Shown one piece after another: positions 28,591 to 37,818 of a stretch of 51,175 nucleotides of DNA. The position numbers were made by a program, and so were the translations under genes. Source of the stretch: Desulfuromonadales bacterium (lineage in GTDB: Bacteria > Desulfobacterota > Desulfuromonadia > Desulfuromonadales > JAHYIW01); contig JARGFI010000018.1 of assembly GCA_029210745.1 (NCBI GenBank), forward strand, positions 1-51,175, read 5' to 3'. The notes under the pieces are model-generated. The model made no database searches and was not told the origin of the DNA. It saw nothing but the letters and a program-made list of their open reading frames with translations. Within the stretch, counting starts at the first letter, position 1, and every line of letters starts with the position of its first letter.

Positions 28591-30318
28591 ATGAAGGTGG
28601 CGAGATTGCTGAACATAACGCTCTTTAAGACTCTTCGTCAAAGCATTATCAGCAAATTTACCTTTCGCACCGGCGTCGTGCTACTTATCACCATCTCAAT
28701 TTTTGCTTTTTTCAACCTTAAAACACTCAGCAAAATATTTTTAAACGATGCCAAGGATGATATTGAGACGATCAGTGAAATTATTCTGCACACAACTCAT
28801 TTTCAGATGCTGGAAGATAATCGGCAGCGCGTCTATGAGATTATGACTGAAGTCTGTTCCCATGAAAAAATTGAACGGATCCGCCTTATCGGCAACGACG
28901 GACTGATCCATTTTTCCACCACCGAGCAAGAAATTGGAAAATCGATTTATACGATCAACACCTACCATGATGATGACATCGACATCTACAGTGACGAATT
29001 TATTTTCCACAACGACAGCAGAAAAATTTTTAAAAACGACAGTGGCGTAAAAATTCTCAGTGTAACAACAAAAATCGAAAACAAACCGACCTGTTACACA
29101 GCAAGCTGTCATGTCCATCAAGCAGACATCAAGACCCTTGGCTTTCTCGAAATCCAGGGTTCGCTGGCCAAAATCGGCGTACAGGAGAGCGCCTACCGCA
29201 ACAGTATTGCTACCTTTGGTGTCGCCTTGTTGATGCTGGTGATAGTTTGTCTGAGCTGGATGACGCAGAGCATGGTCGTCAGCCCGGTACATAATCTCCT
29301 ATTGCATGCGCGCAAAGTTTCAAACATGGAACTGGACAGTCATATCGACCTGCAGTCGAACGACGAAATTGGTGAGCTTGCTGATGCGTTTAACGATATG
29401 ACAGCGAACTTGAAACAATCCCGCGATGAATACAGCGAACTGACTGAAACACTTGAAGCAAAAGTGCTGGAACGGACCAAGGAAATCGCCAAGGTCAGCG
29501 ATCAACTGGTGCAATCTGAAAAACTTGCCTCGCTGGGGCAACTGGTCGCTGGTATCGCCCATGAAATCAACAATCCACTGACCGGTATCCTGATGTTCGC
29601 CAACATTTTTTCTGCTGATCCGCGACTCGATGCGGCACAGCGCGATGACGCTCTCACCATAGTGCATGAGACAAAACGATGTGCCGATATTGTCAGACGT
29701 CTGCTTGACTTTTCGCGAACGTCAATCCCTGAAAAGCAACCCCGATCCCTGGTGCATATCATGGAACAGACCGTATCACTGGTGAAGCACCATGCTGAAG
29801 TTAACGATATTTTGATCGAGCGCAACTACAGTCCAGATTTACCTGAGATTGACGTTGATCCGAATCAAGTGGAACAGGTCTTTATTAACTTGCTGGTCAA
29901 TTCCTGTCACGCAATGCCCCAGGGCGGACACCTGAAAATTGCCATCTGCACCGATTTAAAACGCGACCGACTCATTACCACGATCGCTGACACCGGACAT
30001 GGGATCCCTGAAGAAAATCTGGGCAGGATTTTCGATCCATTCTTCACGACGAAGAATCAGGAACTGAACGGTGTGGCAGGAACGGGACTCGGCCTTTCCG
30101 TCTCTTACGGCATTATCCAGAACCACGGCGGTCAGGTGGCGGTTGAAAGCGTTATAAATCAGGGGACTGTGTTTACGATTGAGTTGCCAATCCGCACCAT
30201 CGCTCATGCTGATGAACAGTTTTTCCTCGACATCGAGGAGTCATTGGAACAAGTTTTTCCACACAGCAGTGACATGGCAACAATCCAGCCACCCTTTCGA
30301 CAGTTTGAATCTTTATAA
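28591..30318 (+). CDS. Membrane sensor histidine kinase with a CX4CH heme-type periplasmic domain
   Basis: This 575-residue protein has a first membrane helix (about 25-45), a periplasmic sensor to about 205, a second helix (205-230), a HAMP linker (SPVHNLLLHARKVSN...), a coiled coil, and an H-box with the phosphorylated His324 (GIAHEINNPL). The ATP-binding domain shows NLLVNSCHAM (N box), DTGHGIPEE and GTGLGLSV (G boxes). The sensor contains C168-x4-C173-H174, a known variant heme c attachment site. The domain is a paralogue of that in the gene at 36389, which has an additional CxxCH that this one lacks. No good ribosome site precedes ATG 28591; TTG 28606, with AGGTGG before it, is a possible start. 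It is followed directly by its response regulator. Confidence 0.88.
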   Translation: MKVARLLNITLFKTLRQSIISKFTFRTGVVLLITISIFAFFNLKTLSKIFLNDAKDDIETISEIILHTTHFQMLEDNRQRVYEIMTEVCSHEKIERIRLIGNDGLIHFSTTEQEIGKSIYTINTYHDDDIDIYSDEFIFHNDSRKIFKNDSGVKILSVTTKIENKPTCYTASCHVHQADIKTLGFLEIQGSLAKIGVQESAYRNSIATFGVALLMLVIVCLSWMTQSMVVSPVHNLLLHARKVSNMELDSHIDLQSNDEIGELADAFNDMTANLKQSRDEYSELTETLEAKVLERTKEIAKVSDQLVQSEKLASLGQLVAGIAHEINNPLTGILMFANIFSADPRLDAAQRDDALTIVHETKRCADIVRRLLDFSRTSIPEKQPRSLVHIMEQTVSLVKHHAEVNDILIERNYSPDLPEIDVDPNQVEQVFINLLVNSCHAMPQGGHLKIAICTDLKRDRLITTIADTGHGIPEENLGRIFDPFFTTKNQELNGVAGTGLGLSVSYGIIQNHGGQVAVESVINQGTVFTIELPIRTIAHADEQFFLDIEESLEQVFPHSSDMATIQPPFRQFESL

Positions 30319-30329
30319 TGCGAGGCGAT

Positions 30330-31760
30330 ATGAATGGCGAAATTGACACGATTCTGGTTGCCGATGATGATGCGGTCATTCGCAAAGGATTGATACGCAT
30401 TCTTTCTGCACAGGGGTACGAAGTCGAAGCGGTCAGCAACGGTCGAGCCGCTCTCGATCGTTTACAGCAAAAACAGTTCAAGCTCCTGGTCACTGATCTC
30501 AAGATGCCCGGCATGAGCGGTCTTGATGTATTGAAGGCGATCCGCAACTGTCAGCCGGAACTCCCGGTAGTACTGATTACCGGTTACGCTGCGATAGAGA
30601 ATGCTGTGGAGGCCATTAAAAATGGCGCGACGGATTATCTGGCCAAACCATTTACCAACGAGGAATTAATCGACAAGATCAAGAACGCCATTGAAAGCAG
30701 AGCGGTACTGATCGACGATATTTGTCTGCGCCGCGAGATGACCGAAACCGGCGGTTTCGATCGTCTGATCGGCGACAGCCGTGAAATGAAACGGCTTTAT
30801 CAACGTATCCTGCAAGTGGCTCCAACCGACAGCACGGTATTAATCAGCGGTGAAAGTGGTACCGGCAAAGAGCTGGTCGCACGCGCGATTCATAGCCACA
30901 GCCCCAGACGTTCACAGCCTTTTGTCGCGATCGACTGCACGTCACTGGCAGAAAGCCTGCTCGAAAGTGAATTATTTGGCCATGTGAAAGGTTCCTTTAC
31001 CGGAGCAACGCAAACCAAACGAGGCTTGTTTGAAGTCGCCGAAGGGGGCACACTGCTGCTCGACGAGATCGGCAATATCAGCCTGACGACACAAGCTAAA
31101 TTACTGCGCGTGCTGCAAGAACGCGTCATTACCCCCCTCGGGGGAACGGAGTTGGTCGCCATTGACATTCGCCTGGTTGCCGCCACCAATGCCAACCTGC
31201 GGGCGATGGTCAAGCAGGGCACTTTCCGTGAGGATCTGTTTTTTCGGCTTAATATTATCCCCATTGAGCTCCCTGCATTACGTGAACACCGCGCGGACCT
31301 GATGCTGTTGGCAAGCCATTTTCTCAGACGTTTTGCTGAAGAAAACGGAAAAGAAATAAGGGGGTTCAGCCCCGATGTCTGCAAACGGTTGGAACAGTAC
31401 GACTTCCCCGGCAATGTGCGCGAGCTGGAAAACATTATTGAACGGGCCGTGGTCCTGACCCAATCTGACCTTATTCAGTGTCAGGATCTGGAGATCCCGG
31501 AGGACAATGATAATCGCGCCGTCGTGGCAACGGACGTTTCCGGAACTGTTCCGCTGGATGCCCATGAACTGAAGGAACGCAAACAATGGCTGCGTGAACA
31601 AGCGGTTCTGCCATTGGAGCGAGCATTTCTCCTCAATGCCATGGATCGCAACGACTGGAATATCACCAAAGCCGCAGAGGAGGTCGGAATGCTGCGGACG
31701 AATTTTCAGGCGATGCTCAAAAAACAGGGGATCAGCAGCAATGCGCGGGGAGTGAGGTAA
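30330..31760 (+). CDS. NtrC-family sigma-54-dependent response regulator
   Basis: This ~476-residue activator has a receiver domain (acidic ADDDA at the start, phospho-acceptor Asp56 in LLVTDLKMPGMSG, Lys in YLAKPF), an AAA+ ATPase with GESGTGKE (Walker A), the sigma-54 contact loop GSFTGA and LLLDEIGNI (Walker B), and a C-terminal Fis-type helix-turn-helix (NITKAAEEVGMLRTNFQAML). The kinase stop overlaps an earlier ATG at 30318 (TAATG), which adds four residues; I prefer ATG 30330, which has GAGG upstream. It presumably activates a sigma-54 promoter, and one candidate lies at 32157-32172 in the following gap. Confidence 0.92.
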   Translation: MNGEIDTILVADDDAVIRKGLIRILSAQGYEVEAVSNGRAALDRLQQKQFKLLVTDLKMPGMSGLDVLKAIRNCQPELPVVLITGYAAIENAVEAIKNGATDYLAKPFTNEELIDKIKNAIESRAVLIDDICLRREMTETGGFDRLIGDSREMKRLYQRILQVAPTDSTVLISGESGTGKELVARAIHSHSPRRSQPFVAIDCTSLAESLLESELFGHVKGSFTGATQTKRGLFEVAEGGTLLLDEIGNISLTTQAKLLRVLQERVITPLGGTELVAIDIRLVAATNANLRAMVKQGTFREDLFFRLNIIPIELPALREHRADLMLLASHFLRRFAEENGKEIRGFSPDVCKRLEQYDFPGNVRELENIIERAVVLTQSDLIQCQDLEIPEDNDNRAVVATDVSGTVPLDAHELKERKQWLREQAVLPLERAFLLNAMDRNDWNITKAAEEVGMLRTNFQAMLKKQGISSNARGVR

Positions 31761-32246
31761 TCTCTCGCTTTTACTTTTTTTACCGGGGCAGACAGCAGCC
31801 AGCCCCGTACAACGCTATCAATATTGCGCTGTGTTACATCCTATCCGGTGTCGCTACCTGTCCCTCCATCAATCGATAGCAGCCGCACACATCTTTCTCA
31901 CAGACACCCACCTTCCTGCATATATGTAACATATATACATACCGTATATTTTTATTATTTTTTTACATATTTCAAAAACATGTTTATTTTCAACCAGTTA
32001 GAAACACACTTCCACTTAAACCAGGCAACCGGCCACCTCCAGACGCATATTTTATTTATACGCCTGCATCTTTTCTGAATCACGTTTCATTTTATCACTG
32101 TTGAATAAATCCATAAAAAACAGTTAATTACGCTATTTATTAAATTTTTCAAATTTTGGTTCAGATCCTGCACAAGTCCCTACCCAAAGCCGGAGCAAGA
32201 ATCTTCGGCGACGGAATATGTTCAACAACCCGAGAAGGAGGCCGTT
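31761..32246. other. Long AT-rich regulatory gap before the NrfD-complex operon
   Basis: This 486-base gap has no coding frame that I can support, though a short open frame occurs. It contains TGTTACAT (31832-31839) and ATGTAACA (31924-31931), two inverted copies of one half-site 92 bases apart, at positions suitable for enhancer binding. A GGGGC..GCCCC hairpin at about 31785-31806 lies after the regulator gene, and a sigma-54-like promoter lies at the downstream end. Confidence 0.55.
32157..32172 (+). promoter_or_regulatory. Possible sigma-54 promoter of the small-protein/NrfD operon
   Basis: TGGTTCAGATCCTGCA keeps the TGG and TGC blocks of the -24/-12 consensus with the required GG-N10-GC spacing. 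It lies about 75 bases before the first gene, downstream of an NtrC-type activator gene. The C-A part of TGGCAC is not kept, so it is a moderate match. Confidence 0.5.
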
Positions 32247-32471
32247 ATGAAAACACTGAGAATGATGGCAACGATGATGGCTGGATCTGCTTCAGCCGCT
32301 TATGCCGCAGCTGGCACACCAGAAGGAGAAACAGGAATTCTGACTTATTTTTTCATTGGATTTTTTGCATTGATCGTTGTGTCCCAGTTAATTCCGGCGA
32401 TGATTCTTTTTTTCGGTCTGATCAAGGGATTGTTCTCCAAAGAAGCAAAAACAACGGTCAATAAAAGCTAA
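32247..32471 (+). CDS. Small membrane protein with signal peptide, family A copy 1
   Basis: This 74-residue protein of unknown function starts with a signal-like sequence (MKTLRMMATMMAGSASAAYA) and then has one strong membrane helix (about 33-58) ending in LIPAMILFFGLIKGLF, then a basic tail. The second copy is at 32967, with the same ending LMPTIILLVGFIKGLI. GGAGG precedes the ATG. It is the first gene behind the possible sigma-54 promoter, and may be a subunit or assembly factor of the membrane complex encoded downstream. I know no named family for it. Confidence 0.8.
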   Translation: MKTLRMMATMMAGSASAAYAAAGTPEGETGILTYFFIGFFALIVVSQLIPAMILFFGLIKGLFSKEAKTTVNKS

Positions 32472-32524
32472 TCGCAGCACGTCGGGTGAACGCATACCGT
32501 CTGGCCTTGGGTGGGAGAATAACA

Positions 32525-32935
32525 ATGATGCACATGCCAGGATTACTGATCGCAGACGAAGACGTGTTGTCGAGAAAACGTATGGCAGATCTATTCATCA
32601 AAGCGGGTTATCAAGTATCTGTGCCCAACTCAGCGGCGGGAGCTCTTTACGGGATCCTTAAAAAAACCGCCCAGGTTGTCCTGCTTAGCCCCCGCTTTGA
32701 TGAATTATTGGCAACTGAATTAATTCCGATCCTTAAAAAGTGTAACCGCAATCTGACCATCATTCTGGTTGCCAGCGAACTCCCCTTAACATTAATTCGC
32801 AAGGCGCGCAGTGAGGGAATTTTCTATCACGCCCTCAAGCCGATCCGTCCGGGTGATGAGGAAGAGTTACGTCAGGCGGTCAAGTGTGCGTTTGAAAAAG
32901 TGACTCATGATTCTGCAGACGAGTGGCTGCAGTAA
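32525..32935 (+). CDS. Receiver-like protein lacking the phospho-acceptor Asp
   Basis: This 136-residue protein reads like a stand-alone CheY-type receiver: LLIADEDVLSRKRMADLF is the acidic-pocket start, and the conserved Lys is in YHALKPIRP (Lys105). At the usual phospho-acceptor spot, VVLLSPRFDE has Ser55 in place of Asp, so it is probably not phosphorylated there (a pseudo-receiver). ATG 32525 follows GGGAG; a longer frame to 32486 has no such site. It is placed between two paralogous small membrane proteins, so a structural or binding role at the membrane is plausible. This is inference. Confidence 0.75.
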   Translation: MMHMPGLLIADEDVLSRKRMADLFIKAGYQVSVPNSAAGALYGILKKTAQVVLLSPRFDELLATELIPILKKCNRNLTIILVASELPLTLIRKARSEGIFYHALKPIRPGDEEELRQAVKCAFEKVTHDSADEWLQ

Positions 32936-32966
32936 TAACCTGAGTCAACAACTTAACGGAGGCGTT

Positions 32967-33209
32967 ATGAAAAAGTTTAAAAGTTTACTGATGGGACTCT
33001 CGATGTTGGCACTGATCATAGAACCAGCCTTTGCCGTGGACACAACCAAGACTTACTCCAGCGGGATTCTGGTCGGTTCCTTCCTGGCCTTTTGTGCCTT
33101 GATTATTCTGGTACAGCTGATGCCAACAATCATCTTGCTGGTCGGGTTTATCAAGGGACTGATCAAGGGAGAAGGAAAGCAGGCGGCATATAGTAGCAAA
33201 AAAAACTGA
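32967..33209 (+). CDS. Small membrane protein with signal peptide, family A copy 2
   Basis: This 80-residue protein has a signal peptide (KFKSLLMGLSMLALIIEPAFA) and one membrane helix (about 36-62) ending in LMPTIILLVGFIKGLIKG. The helix region matches the 32247 gene product in order and spacing (Q-L-I/M-P-x-x-I-L-L/F..G-x-I-K-G-L), so the two arose by duplication. CGGAGG stands before ATG 32967. Function is unknown. Confidence 0.8.
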   Translation: MKKFKSLLMGLSMLALIIEPAFAVDTTKTYSSGILVGSFLAFCALIILVQLMPTIILLVGFIKGLIKGEGKQAAYSSKKN

Positions 33210-33253
33210 CCTGATCGGGAACCGTTAATCGTAACAATTGATGGGAGGAAAAA

Positions 33254-33424
33254 ATGATTGAACACGTACTTCAATCGATAGGTGAGTGGCAAAGTGTTCA
33301 TACCCTGGTCGATTACTATCAGTATATCAAGGGCGTTGAATACCTGATCTGTGTGGCATTTTTCATCGCTTTCCCGATGTACTATAAGTATTTGAATTCA
33401 AATTCCGTTGACGCCAACAAATAG
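33254..33424 (+). CDS. 56-residue membrane protein
   Basis: This short frame starts at ATG 33254, preceded by GGGAGGAAAAA, and encodes MIEHVLQSIGEW..., then a hydrophobic helix (YLICVAFFIAFPMYY, about 31-45) and a hydrophilic tail ending VDANK. It lies in the run of small membrane proteins, 44 bases after the previous one and 36 bases before the cytochrome gene. Ideal ribosome site and position support a real gene. No family is recognised. Confidence 0.7.
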   Translation: MIEHVLQSIGEWQSVHTLVDYYQYIKGVEYLICVAFFIAFPMYYKYLNSNSVDANK

Positions 33425-33460
33425 TGTTGCTGGGCGATCTTTAGTAAGGGAGTGATAATT

Positions 33461-33988
33461 ATGAACGCTAAGTTATTCGGAGTTACCTTGATCATGGCGG
33501 TGTCGATCCTCGCGACAGGTAGCCTGAGTCTGGCAGGCGACATGCCTGAACAAGTGTCGCTCGATACCATGGTCAAGTATTTCTCCGGCGTCAAATTTGA
33601 TCATGCCATGCATACCGAGTTGGGGGAAGATTGCTCGCGCTGCCATCATCATACCACCGGAACAGGAACAACCGACTCACGTTGCGTAAGCTGCCATGCT
33701 GACAGTGACGGTGTCGCTAACGTTGCATGTCGTGATTGCCATGTCGTCGATCCATTTTCTGCGGAACACCTAAATCAAAAAGCCCTGTCCCGCTACCAGT
33801 TTCATATCGACAAACCCGGCCTGAAAGCGGTGTATCACTGGAACTGCGTCGGTTGCCATGAAACGATGAGTGGTCCAACGGGATGTCAGACGTGTCATAC
33901 CAGAACGCCGGACGGTGACGCCTTTTTTCATGCCGATGCGTCCCCCGTTGACACGAATTGGGTCAAACAGTTGTTTGATTTGAAATGA
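33461..33988 (+). CDS. Periplasmic multiheme c-type cytochrome (five CxxCH)
   Basis: This 175-residue protein has a signal peptide (about 1-26, LATGSLSLAG) and five heme c sites: CSRCH, CVSCH, CRDCH, CVGCH and CQTCH. The spacing with FDHAMHTELG before the first site resembles cytochrome c3/c7 (class III) proteins, in which upstream histidines serve as distal ligands. A five-heme periplasmic cytochrome next to NrfC- and NrfD-like genes recalls NrfB and the cytochrome subunits of Geobacter Cbc complexes. I chose ATG 33461, since GGGAG lies 8 bases before it. Confidence 0.9.
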   Translation: MNAKLFGVTLIMAVSILATGSLSLAGDMPEQVSLDTMVKYFSGVKFDHAMHTELGEDCSRCHHHTTGTGTTDSRCVSCHADSDGVANVACRDCHVVDPFSAEHLNQKALSRYQFHIDKPGLKAVYHWNCVGCHETMSGPTGCQTCHTRTPDGDAFFHADASPVDTNWVKQLFDLK

Positions 33989-34028
33989 CATTCACCGAAG
34001 CATGTTTTTGAGGATAAGGAGAGTCGTT

Positions 34029-34985
34029 ATGAGTGGAATCAGTCGACGAAGATTTCTTGCCGCGAGTGTGGCAGGATGTGCCGCCACAACTTTGGCCGGC
34101 ACCAAAAAAGCCTTGGCAAGCGGATCATTTTCCGGCTACCCGGAGGGCATGGGGGTATTGGTCGATTTGACGCGCTGCGTCGGCTGCCGCAGCTGCGAAG
34201 CCGCCTGCAACAAGGAGCAACAGCTGCCAGCACCGGAGTTACCTTTTGATGACAAATCAGTTTTTGACCAAACTTTCCATGACGGCAAACAGTTGCGGCG
34301 TCCCGATGAAAATGCCTACACGGTTGTAAATCGCTATCAACCTGCCAGCAGCGATCAGCCCGTTTACCGCAAAGTGCAGTGCAATCATTGCAGCGAGCCT
34401 GCCTGCCTCACCTCCTGTTTTGTCAATGCCTATACCAAAACGAAGGAAGGGGCTGTCATCTATAATTCCAAAGTTTGCGTTGGCTGCCGTAACTGTATGA
34501 TTGCCTGCCCGTTTCACATCCCTGGCTACAGTTACTCCAGCGCCTTTGATCCAGTCGTTAAAAAGTGTATTTTCTGCCACGAAACACGGCTGAAGAATGG
34601 CCTGCCACCGGCCTGTGTCGAGATTTGCCCGCAGGAAGCTCTCACCTTCGGCAAGCGCAAGGAACTACTCAAAATCGGTAATAACCGCATTCAGACACAC
34701 CCAGGCCGCTACGTGAATCGAATCTATGGAGAAAAAGAGCTGGGTGGAACCAGTTGGATGTATCTGTCCCCGGTACCCTTTAGCGAAGTCGGTTTCGACC
34801 CAAATCCGGGGAACGATCCAATTATCAACCAGGTGAAGGATTTCCTCGGCACCGTGCCGATGGTTCTCGCCATCTGGCCCGCAATGTTTGCTGGTTTCCA
34901 CCTTCTTGCAAAAAAGCATGACGGCCATGAGGGGCATGACCAAACCGCCGACAAAACACCAGGCGACGAGGGAGATGAACAATGA
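34029..34985 (+). CDS. Tat-exported 4x[4Fe-4S] ferredoxin subunit (NrfC/HybA-like)
   Basis: This 318-residue protein has a twin-arginine signal (SRRRFLAASVAG) and four cysteine clusters: CVGCRSCEAAC, CNHCSEPACLTSC, CVGCRNCMIAC and CIFCHETRL...ACVEIC. The C-terminus has a hydrophobic anchor (about 280-300, VPMVLAIWPAMFAGFHLL) and an H/D/E-rich tail, like HybA of hydrogenase-2. It would carry electrons at the outer face of the inner membrane. The start ATG 34029 has AAGGAG before it. It overlaps the next gene by 4 bases (ATGA). Confidence 0.93.
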   Translation: MSGISRRRFLAASVAGCAATTLAGTKKALASGSFSGYPEGMGVLVDLTRCVGCRSCEAACNKEQQLPAPELPFDDKSVFDQTFHDGKQLRRPDENAYTVVNRYQPASSDQPVYRKVQCNHCSEPACLTSCFVNAYTKTKEGAVIYNSKVCVGCRNCMIACPFHIPGYSYSSAFDPVVKKCIFCHETRLKNGLPPACVEICPQEALTFGKRKELLKIGNNRIQTHPGRYVNRIYGEKELGGTSWMYLSPVPFSEVGFDPNPGNDPIINQVKDFLGTVPMVLAIWPAMFAGFHLLAKKHDGHEGHDQTADKTPGDEGDEQ

Positions 34986-36322
34986 AAAGTCTGATTAAAT
35001 GCGGGGTGAAACTCGTTGATTCACCGACCAACAAAGAGTCTCGCCATAGCTGGAGTCTAAAACAAAAACTCTTTTTCGGGCTGACCCCAGGACAGTATTT
35101 CGGGCAGGCATTACGCAATCCGTTCAATTGGATTCTGGGGATCATCTTCGCGATCGGACTGCCATTGATCGCCTATCGTTACCTGTTCGGACTCGGCGTC
35201 GTCACTCATGCATCAAACGACTATCCCTGGGGCTTGTTTCTGGGCTTTGGTCTTTTTGCAATGGTGCCACTTTCTGCGTCAGGATTCATGCTCGGAACAA
35301 CCGTTGAAATCTTCGGTCGCCACGATTTCGAGCCGATTGAACGCCTGGCCCTGCTTAACGGTCTGCTGGGGTACTTTTTTGCTGTCGTCTACTTGCTGGT
35401 TGATCTTGGTCAGCCGTGGCGATTACCCTACCCGATGGTGGTCTCTTTCGGGCCGGCCGCAGTCCTCTTTCTGGTCGCCTGGCACGTCGCCACCTATCTG
35501 TCGGTACAGGTCGCTGAAGTCTCTGTCGCATTCTTTGAATGGATCGGGTGGCTGGGGGGCAATCGCTTTGTGCGCCGGATTGCCATCGGACTGACCATCG
35601 CCGGCATCATTCTCTCCACCCTTCATCAGGGAGCGTTGGGGGCGCTGTTCAATTACGCACCGGGAAAGGTTCATCCACTCTGGTATTCAGCGTCGTTTCA
35701 ATGGATTCATTTCTTCTGTTCGTCGATTCCGGCGGGGCTCTGCATGGTGATCGCGGTCAGCACAATCGTCAAAAAAACCATGAGCTGGCGCTGTGACAGA
35801 AACTTTCTCGACAATCTCGACCGCTGTACTCTGGGTCTGGCCAAAGGGGCCAGTCTGGCGTTGATCACCTACCTGGCGATCAAATTGATCGGCGTTGCCC
35901 ACGACAATGAGTGGGGGTATCTGGCCACCGGATGGGGCGCCTGGTTTATGGCTGAAATCGGCTTCGGCGTGATTCTGCCAATTATTCTCTTCGCCTACGC
36001 GATTCATCATCGCAAGGTTGGTCTGGCCCGGCTGGGAGCATTTATCACCGTCTTCGGTATTGTCCTGAATCGTTTAAATACCGCACTCATCACTTTCAAC
36101 TGGCAACTCTATCAGGAAATCCCTCACGTATTTGAAGTGCTGATTACGATAACGGTTTTTGCAATCTATATTGTGGTCTATCGCTTCATCCTCTACCGAC
36201 TACCGATTCTTTATGTGTGGAAAGAGCAACCACAAGAAGCCCTTGCCGCAGAAGCAGTCAAGACAAATACGATCACCACAGCTCCCTCCCCGGCGGGTGC
36301 CCTGTATCGCCGGATCGATTAA
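34982..36322 (+). CDS. NrfD/HybB-like integral membrane quinol subunit
   Basis: This 446-residue protein has about nine or ten hydrophobic segments from residue 48 on. The N-terminal PGQYFGQALRNPFNWILG and the YPWGLFLGFGLF block fit the HybB/CbcU-like branch of the NrfD family. NrfD proteins bind quinone and exchange electrons with the attached ferredoxin subunit. No hydrogenase, molybdopterin or nitrite reductase subunit is encoded nearby, so the complex most likely passes electrons between menaquinone and the multiheme cytochrome; the resemblance to Geobacter Cbc complexes is from memory. The ORF overlaps the upstream gene. Confidence 0.92.
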   Translation: MKSLIKCGVKLVDSPTNKESRHSWSLKQKLFFGLTPGQYFGQALRNPFNWILGIIFAIGLPLIAYRYLFGLGVVTHASNDYPWGLFLGFGLFAMVPLSASGFMLGTTVEIFGRHDFEPIERLALLNGLLGYFFAVVYLLVDLGQPWRLPYPMVVSFGPAAVLFLVAWHVATYLSVQVAEVSVAFFEWIGWLGGNRFVRRIAIGLTIAGIILSTLHQGALGALFNYAPGKVHPLWYSASFQWIHFFCSSIPAGLCMVIAVSTIVKKTMSWRCDRNFLDNLDRCTLGLAKGASLALITYLAIKLIGVAHDNEWGYLATGWGAWFMAEIGFGVILPIILFAYAIHHRKVGLARLGAFITVFGIVLNRLNTALITFNWQLYQEIPHVFEVLITITVFAIYIVVYRFILYRLPILYVWKEQPQEALAAEAVKTNTITTAPSPAGALYRRID

Positions 36323-36327
36323 AAAAC

Positions 36328-36364
36328 ATGCCTGCGGGACCGTCCGTTGCGGTCCCGCAGGCAT
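36328..36364 (+). terminator. Perfect 15-bp hairpin after the NrfD gene
   Basis: ATGCCTGCGGGACCG pairs with CGGTCCCGCAGGCAT around a 7-base loop, starting 6 bases after the stop codon. No T run follows, so it may stop, stabilise or process the transcript, not a classic terminator. Confidence 0.6.
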
Positions 36365-36388
36365 ATGAATAGCGCAAGGAGTCACATC

Positions 36389-37234
36389 ATGCTCAGCAGC
36401 ATAAACAGTCGTGCTATCATCCCGGTCGCCTGCGCTGTTACCGGATTTGTCATTGCCTGCTGTGTGCTTTTATACAGCTTTGTCAAGGAAGACCTGACCA
36501 AGGGTGAAATTCAGCATGCGGCTGATCTTGCCGATACGGTGATTAAATCAACCCGTTACGCCATGCTTAAAGATGATCGGGATACTTTGAGCAACATCAT
36601 CAGCAGCATCGGCGAACAAAAACAAGTGGAACATTTACGTATTTTCAATAAAAAGGGGTTGATCATGTTTACCCGCGAAAGCGGGGAACGGTACAAGTTT
36701 ATCAACAAATCAGCAGCAGGATGCAAGGAGTGTCACGTCGAAGGAGAGCCGAAACACAGCCTTGGCACCATGTCGCAAGCACGTCAATTTACCAATAACG
36801 CCGGCAACAGCATATTGGCAATCACCGCACCGATCTACAATGAACCGGCATGTTCCAACGCGTCCTGCCACGAACATAATGCCGACCAAAAACTGCTTGG
36901 AACAATCGATATTGGCCTCTCTCAGACCCCTCTCAAACAGACGCTCGGACAGCTGAAAAACCGCATGATTATATTCAGCGGGATGGTTCTGATTCTGACT
37001 GTCGGAGCGGTTTGTGCCCTTTTGTACAACCAGGTTTTTTTGCCAATCAAAAAACTGACCAACTTTACTGAAACCCCCCAGAACGGCATGCTTGAGGATG
37101 ATTTCCCGGAAGTAAGTGGCGATATCGCCCGGCTGGCCCATGCCTTTCAAAAAATGTCTCACCAGGTAAAAGAGCTCGAACACCGCTTGTTACACAAGGA
37201 ACATGGTGTTAATTCGCCAGATTCTCTGTCCTAA
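36389..37234 (+). CDS. Membrane-anchored heme sensor with HAMP-like region and no output domain
   Basis: This 281-residue protein has a membrane helix (about 12-32), a periplasmic domain with CKECH (112-116, CxxCH) and C155-x4-C160-H161 (CX4CH), a second helix (195-215), and a short HAMP-like and coiled region that ends without a kinase, methyl-accepting or cyclase domain. The periplasmic part aligns with that of the kinase at 28591 through LRIFNKKGLIMFT / IRLIGNDGLIHFS and the CX4CH region. AAGGAG stands 7 bases before ATG 36389. It could sense or relay redox state to the kinase, or simply carry hemes. The role is inference. Confidence 0.8.
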   Translation: MLSSINSRAIIPVACAVTGFVIACCVLLYSFVKEDLTKGEIQHAADLADTVIKSTRYAMLKDDRDTLSNIISSIGEQKQVEHLRIFNKKGLIMFTRESGERYKFINKSAAGCKECHVEGEPKHSLGTMSQARQFTNNAGNSILAITAPIYNEPACSNASCHEHNADQKLLGTIDIGLSQTPLKQTLGQLKNRMIIFSGMVLILTVGAVCALLYNQVFLPIKKLTNFTETPQNGMLEDDFPEVSGDIARLAHAFQKMSHQVKELEHRLLHKEHGVNSPDSLS

Positions 37235-37296
37235 AACTGATCGTTATGTTACAGTTGGCTCAATTTTGAACACTCTGTGGTGGGCAGAAGGAGCGA

Positions 37297-37818
37297 ATGA
37301 TGAACCAGGCGGAATCCCCCCGCGAGGTGCGTCCCTTTCCGGATCGGGAAGAGTTGCGACAACGCATCGAAAGACGCATCAAAACCCTTGAACGCATCGC
37401 CGGAAGCGGTCTTTGGGCAATGGTTCTGTTTCTGCTGGTGAGCTTGTCTGCTTTTTATGAATTTTCAATCTTCCCGGCCCTCGGTACTGAGGTGCGACAA
37501 CTCCTTGGCACCCCCCCGCCAGCAACCATGATCAGCCTGGCCCTGGTTATATATGCCTTTTCGAGCATTGTCCGAACCCTGGCGAGAATGAGCCATAACA
37601 TCACGCCTTTCCTTGGGTGGATGCATACCGCTTTTTTTTGCGCTTTCTATATCTTTTACCATCTATCCGGGGCCCTTCCGGATAATTTCTGGGCTGTTTT
37701 TTTTTCCGGGACCAGCGTTATGGGGCTGGAAAATTATCATATCTGGGCATACAGCAGCAACGCGATCCGCAAAGAACGCGCCCTACTGGAGAGCATGCAG
37801 GTTACCCAAAAAGAGTAG
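37297..37818 (+). CDS. Membrane protein of unknown function, 173 residues
   Basis: This protein has a charged N-terminal helix (PFPDREELRQRIERRIK) and three to four hydrophobic segments (WAMVLFLLVSLSAFY, MISLALVIYAFSS, MHTAFFCAFYIFYHLSG, and a weaker fourth), then a basic tail. It lies 62 bases after the heme sensor on the same strand with AAGGAG before two tandem ATG codons. It is the last gene of the redox cluster, since rsmD-coaD follow. No family is recognised. Confidence 0.75.
   Translation: MMNQAESPREVRPFPDREELRQRIERRIKTLERIAGSGLWAMVLFLLVSLSAFYEFSIFPALGTEVRQLLGTPPPATMISLALVIYAFSSIVRTLARMSHNITPFLGWMHTAFFCAFYIFYHLSGALPDNFWAVFFSGTSVMGLENYHIWAYSSNAIRKERALLESMQVTQKE

Follow-up and report, generated by a model that had tools for sequence, protein, structure and literature searches.

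The operon described here lies in a 51,175-nt stretch of DNA (the window) from a Desulfuromonadales bacterium. A sequence-only reading of the window had listed nine consecutive plus-strand genes between positions 32247 and 37818, with a histidine kinase and a sigma-54 activator just upstream. We find all nine open reading frames in that order, which recurs in most of the recovered loci and is therefore beyond chance, and we find the two regulatory genes ahead of them (Table 1). Gaps between successive genes run from about 31 to 66 nt, with a single 4-nt overlap, and a clear ribosome site precedes most of the genes. The preferred starts are 32525 for the receiver-like protein (REC), 33461 for the cytochrome, 36389 for the sensor, and 34029 for the iron-sulfur protein, where inspection of the sequence shows a preceding AAGGAG. 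A gene for RsmD comes after the operon end. At the thresholds used, the NrfD-type core, REC, and the sensor each occur as a single copy in the window's genome.

Table 1. Features of the operon and of the regulatory genes upstream, with positions in the window. Cut-offs in parentheses are those of the NCBIfam equivalog models.
Feature	Position	Strand	Evidence
Sensor histidine kinase, periplasmic c-heme sensor	28591..30318	+	Pfam HAMP, HisKA, HATPase_c; CX4CH at residue 168
Sigma-54-dependent response regulator (receiver, AAA, Fis HTH)	30318..31760	+	Pfam Sigma54_activat, 233 bits
Putative sigma-54 promoter TTGGTTCAGATCCTGCA	32156..32172	+	91 nt 5' of smA; -24/-12 element recurs in homologous loci
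smA, 74-aa membrane protein	32247..32471	+	Signal-type N-terminus and one membrane helix with Q-x-x-P
REC, receiver-like, without phospho-acceptor Asp	32525..32935	+	Pfam Response_reg, 30.3 bits, just above the Pfam cut-off
smB, 80-aa smA paralogue	32967..33209	+	38% identity to smA, common profile
HmcD-like hydrophobic subunit, 56 aa	33254..33424	+	NCBIfam HmcD, 19 bits (cut-off 34)
Pentaheme cytochrome	33461..33988	+	Five CXXCH; profile matches HmcA/NhcA C-termini
HmcB/HybA-like Tat-exported 4x[4Fe-4S] protein, C-terminal membrane tail	34029..34985	+	NCBIfam HmcB, 393 bits (cut-off 420)
HmcC/HybB-like NrfD-family quinone-interacting subunit	34982..36322	+	NCBIfam HmcC, 354 bits (cut-off 550)
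Hairpin between core and sensor gene	36328..36364	+	-33.9 kcal/mol; kept across loci
CbcD-like membrane heme protein	36389..37234	+	Cache/PAS periplasmic domain, CX4CH, HAMP-like end, kinase-less
CbcE-position membrane protein, fold without known match	37297..37818	+	AlphaFold pLDDT 93; position in Cbc5-type loci

The redox proteins at the center of the operon are those that had been read from the sequence. Five CXXCH motifs were counted in the cytochrome, the iron-sulfur protein carries a Tat motif and its 16 ligand cysteines fall into four groups, and the NrfD/HybB-like protein scores higher with the NCBIfam model for HmcC than with those for HybB (160 bits) or QrcD (43 bits). Likewise, the iron-sulfur protein scores lower with HybA (201 bits) than with HmcB. 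A profile of the cytochrome matches HmcA (PDB 1h29/1gws; E = 3e-21) and the nine-heme cytochrome NhcA (1duw; E = 3e-15), in each case over the final ~125 residues. The small HmcD-like gene adjoins the NrfD core in 78 of the 80 loci with enough flanking sequence. For the NrfD-like protein there was no Pfam NrfD match, and the PDB yielded nothing, whether searched with the single sequence or with a profile. On these matches we regard the core as a trimmed Hmc/Nhc module; because all four core proteins stay below their NCBIfam equivalog cut-offs, it is a relative rather than a member of Hmc or Nhc. In a side observation, one homologous locus (L093, G011:C10) has its NrfD gene split over three frames with the rest of the locus whole, either by decay or by sequencing error.

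Comparison with described complexes places this core more closely. The Hmc complex of Desulfovibrio vulgaris (HmcABCDEF) has homologues of its HmcB, HmcC, and HmcD here, and the cytochrome resembles the HmcA C-terminus. However, no HmcE or HmcF gene was found at the locus up to the operon end and the RsmD gene, and in place of the 16-heme HmcA there is a five-heme protein whose match is confined to the HmcA C-terminal region. The Nhc complex of Desulfovibrio (NhcABCD) is alike in having a cytochrome, a 4x[4Fe-4S] protein, an NrfD-like protein, and a small D subunit, all four of which have counterparts here, and in lacking a cytoplasmic arm; it differs in that its cytochrome has nine hemes against five here, with no NCBIfam equivalog match for the latter, and in that the operon described here has a Cbc5-type regulatory chassis. 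A 2024 survey reported pairs of a tail-anchored iron-sulfur protein and a HybB-like protein in Hmc and in one three-gene module (PMC10924467). That module likewise sets the pair beside a c cytochrome (an octaheme one), with the HybB-like protein as quinol oxidase, but was reported without conserved flanking genes, whereas the flank here is strongly conserved. CbcSTU (Cbc4) of Geobacter, a described Cbc menaquinol oxidoreductase complex, also joins a cytochrome and an iron-sulfur protein to a membrane subunit, CbcU. We dropped it as a candidate on account of its four-heme cytochrome (five hemes here) and its probable place in a separate group of NrfD proteins with about 30% identity. DsrOP and Qrc were also rejected, as their scores are far below those with the HmcB and HmcC models. 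We found no paper on this exact operon in the open-access literature. The sequence-only reading had called the locus a candidate new redox module. The idea of a new complex was abandoned after the HmcB, HmcC, and HmcD scores: the core is of a known, Hmc/Nhc-like kind, and the last two genes resemble those for CbcD and CbcE. The other part of that reading, a module that links quinone to cytochrome and has no terminal catalytic subunit, is supported by the Hmc-type matches.

The genes around the core belong to a different and wider context. Relatives of the NrfD protein with 66-97% identity occur in nearly half of the genomes of the order and in the named hosts Geomonas, Citrifermentans, Geotalea, Desulfuromusa, Malonomonas, and Pelovirga, and the neighborhoods compared have a near-fixed gene order. 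The operon is widespread among metal- and sulfur-reducing bacteria. The neighborhoods of other REC and small-protein copies revealed the same chassis with an alternative core: in Geobacter-like genomes, the kinase, regulator, smA, REC, and a further small-protein gene are followed by genes for a 7-heme c cytochrome, a b561-type cytochrome b, and a 12-heme c cytochrome, and then by the same sensor and membrane protein genes. The published descriptions of Cbc5 give CbcA as a heptaheme cytochrome, CbcB as a b561-type cytochrome b, CbcC as a cytochrome with 12 hemes, CbcD as a HAMP protein with 2 hemes, and CbcE as a membrane protein. Because the heme counts and the HAMP heme protein agree with these descriptions, we identify the sensor as CbcD-like and the last membrane protein, by its position, as CbcE-like; homologues of both occupy the same positions in both locus types. 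By architecture, the Cbc-core loci appear to correspond to Cbc5/CbcBA (cbcABCDE) of Geobacter sulfurreducens, which has the same order of heme-sensor kinase, sigma-54 regulator, smA-REC-small protein, core, CbcD, and CbcE position as the operon described here. The difference lies in the core, which is a 7-heme c cytochrome and a b561-type cytochrome b in CbcBA and an NrfD, iron-sulfur, and pentaheme cytochrome set here. The CbcA heptaheme and the CbcB cytochrome b are absent from the locus, and CbcB is absent from the window's genome at the thresholds used.

The kinase is present in most homologous loci with either core and retains its CX4CH motif in 28 of 29 orthologues. The kinase-less heme sensor had been recognized as such from the sequence, and we find in it CX2CH and CX4CH motifs, a HAMP-like end, and no kinase domain. 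Its CX4CH is invariant in 31 aligned sensors, its profile matches the heme chemoreceptor domains 3b47 (E = 4e-4) and 3b42 (E = 5e-3), and its structural model, of modest confidence (pLDDT 76), resembles the extracellular sensor domains of kinases. The last membrane protein has no significant NCBIfam match, and its AlphaFold model has no PDB fold match. The sigma-54 regulator may be linked to BccR of G. sulfurreducens. Separately, eight Geobacter-like loci have an extra cytochrome-like gene between the NrfD and sensor genes, and in two others (L248/L249) the extra gene at this place encodes a 12-heme, CbcC-like cytochrome.

We asked how the two cores are distributed over the chassis in 277 genomes of the class. 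Among the best 150 CbcD-like genes listed, 82 lie near an NrfD core (within 6 kb), none lies near both cores, and at least 54 lie near CbcB, a lower bound because CbcB matches were entered to about E = 1e-91. The remaining 14 lie near neither, one of which (G150) has CbcB among weaker matches. A tree of the regulators, built with a quick model, mixes NrfD-type and Cbc-type loci and needs seven changes of core type, at least four of them forced on well-supported branches, which implies repeated exchange of the core. In two loci (L072, L077) both cores stand back to back, each with its own regulator and its own set of smA, REC, and smB. These data suggest that one chassis carries two exchangeable cores and that the NrfD core fills the CbcBA slot.

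Our preferred reading, to which we give good though not overwhelming odds, is that the block is a redox-regulated operon for an inner-membrane quinone:periplasmic cytochrome c oxidoreductase, built on a Cbc5 chassis in which the CbcA/CbcB core is replaced by a core of the Hmc/Nhc family. By analogy, the most likely activity would be that of a low-potential menaquinol:periplasmic cytochrome c oxidoreductase, in which electrons would pass from menaquinol through the NrfD subunit and the four [4Fe-4S] clusters to the pentaheme cytochrome and on to periplasmic cytochromes, presumably reversibly. According to the literature on CbcBA, this complex is a menaquinol oxidase in Geobacter, operates near -0.2 V, is induced when better acceptors are absent, and may run in reverse in syntrophic partners. 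With their regulation in common, the NrfD core and CbcBA probably act at the same step. A low-potential respiratory role is likely by this analogy, which draws on the common chassis and not on the core. NrfD proteins are described as quinone-binding, with putative ion channels or paths (PMC8076601), so exchange of the core may change the energy coupling.

The flow of electrons could also run the other way. The complex would then be a quinone reductase, in which menaquinone receives electrons from periplasmic cytochromes that in turn obtain them from hydrogen, formate, or a syntrophic partner. Nhc and Qrc are both described as running toward quinone (Nhc as a TpIc3:quinone oxidoreductase), the core here is Hmc/Nhc-like, and Malonomonas, Pelovirga, and Desulfuromusa are among the named hosts. 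Against this, the core occupies the slot of CbcBA, a menaquinol oxidase in Geobacter, and the direction of an NrfD complex is unreadable from sequence; we consider a quinone reductase possible but doubtful.

A route of control can also be proposed. The periplasmic c-heme kinase would sense redox state and phosphorylate the sigma-54 activator, which in turn would fire the -24/-12 promoter before smA. The majority of homologous loci have such an element before smA, at -53 to -91, and in most loci few shuffled sequences reach an equal score. The heme-sensing two-component control that had been suggested from the window is thus strengthened by a conserved site, the control itself being a prediction. 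The CbcD-like protein, a sensor of the same type as the kinase, probably reports or carries electrons at the membrane. The hairpin between the NrfD and sensor genes is present in nearly all loci (L054-L092) though its sequence differs, and in several lineages it is followed by a T-run, as in a terminator. This argues against one uniform transcription unit; expression of the two genes beyond the hairpin, for the sensor and the last membrane protein, may be separate or lower.

The first three genes of the operon, smA, REC, and smB, behave differently from the core. The two small proteins described as paralogous are indeed smA and smB, which fit one profile, share a membrane helix whose Q and P are invariant, and have no significant Pfam or PDB match; the third small protein, of the HmcD type, is no paralogue of the pair. 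The call of a pseudo-receiver for REC also proved sound: a serine takes the place of the phospho-acceptor Asp, and S or G is found there in 16 of 17 aligned relatives. With the phospho-Asp lost, we dropped a role as a normal response regulator. The REC of Desulfuromonadia, with the phospho-Asp gone, has an invariant EGIF-H-L surface. REC is in its canonical position in 66 of 80 NrfD loci, and in 11 of the 80 neither REC nor smA/smB is in place (absent or moved); these 80 comprise two partly overlapping sets and are not all independent. One family has three loci with the triad inverted and downstream, in another locus (L062) REC has kept its place while smA and smB now lie downstream, and in others the triad is doubled. 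It also adjoins CbcBA cores, some of which lack it, and other lineages of the phylum have standalone groups of REC with a small-protein pair. As the triad is absent, moved, or duplicated in places, is found next to CbcBA as well, and exists on its own in other lineages, we view smA-REC-smB as a separable accessory module, so far uncharacterized.

Several further arrangements were observed. In seven loci from another lineage of the phylum, standalone small-small-REC triads keep the phospho-Asp and mostly have no oxidase nearby. An smA/smB pair lies beside an aldehyde ferredoxin oxidoreductase gene (Pfam AFOR_N, AFOR_C) at L234:4640-7366. REC and smB form one open frame in ten loci; a ribosome site lies inside the linker of these single frames, which may represent a fusion with an internal start, and the running of REC in frame into smB hints at physical linkage.

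The sequence-only reading had taken smA, REC, and smB for structural subunits of the quinone complex and had counted the three small proteins as new ones. The triad does hold its canonical position in most NrfD loci, and small hydrophobic subunits such as HmcD are known in such complexes. However, the 56-aa protein is of this known HmcD type, and the synteny comparison separates it, near-constant with NrfD, from smA, REC, and smB, which vary; their loss or displacement in some loci and their presence beside an unrelated CbcBA core and alone in other lineages make a structural role improbable. Instead, the triad would be a membrane-docked pseudo-receiver accessory for the tuning or assembly of the core, of either type. 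More tentatively, with the chances against it, we suggest that smA-REC-smB may be an undescribed autonomous membrane signaling module, in which a pair of ~75-aa membrane proteins serves as the docking site of a receiver-like protein. This module, plugged into different quinol oxidases and also used alone, would gate electron flow through contacts between proteins and not through transcription. Least credible is the view that the operon is mainly a sensing device, in which the complex brings the quinone potential into equilibrium with that of the periplasmic hemes on behalf of the kinase and sensor, while respiratory flux stays low. In its favor, the core is flanked by a sigma-54 regulator, a receiver, and two heme sensors; against it, the same regulators flank CbcBA, a respiratory oxidase.

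The choice of quinol oxidase sets the energy gain of Geobacter-like bacteria near the thermodynamic limit. In the loci compared, a single chassis of regulators and sensors carries either CbcBA or an NrfD core, never both at one sensor gene among those examined, so that the same control may go with different coupling. This accounts for finding CbcD and CbcE, which are annotated as subunits of Cbc5, where CbcBA is missing, and it supplies respiration markers for genomes that lack CbcBA. It also reveals an uncharacterized family of small proteins and pseudo-receivers.
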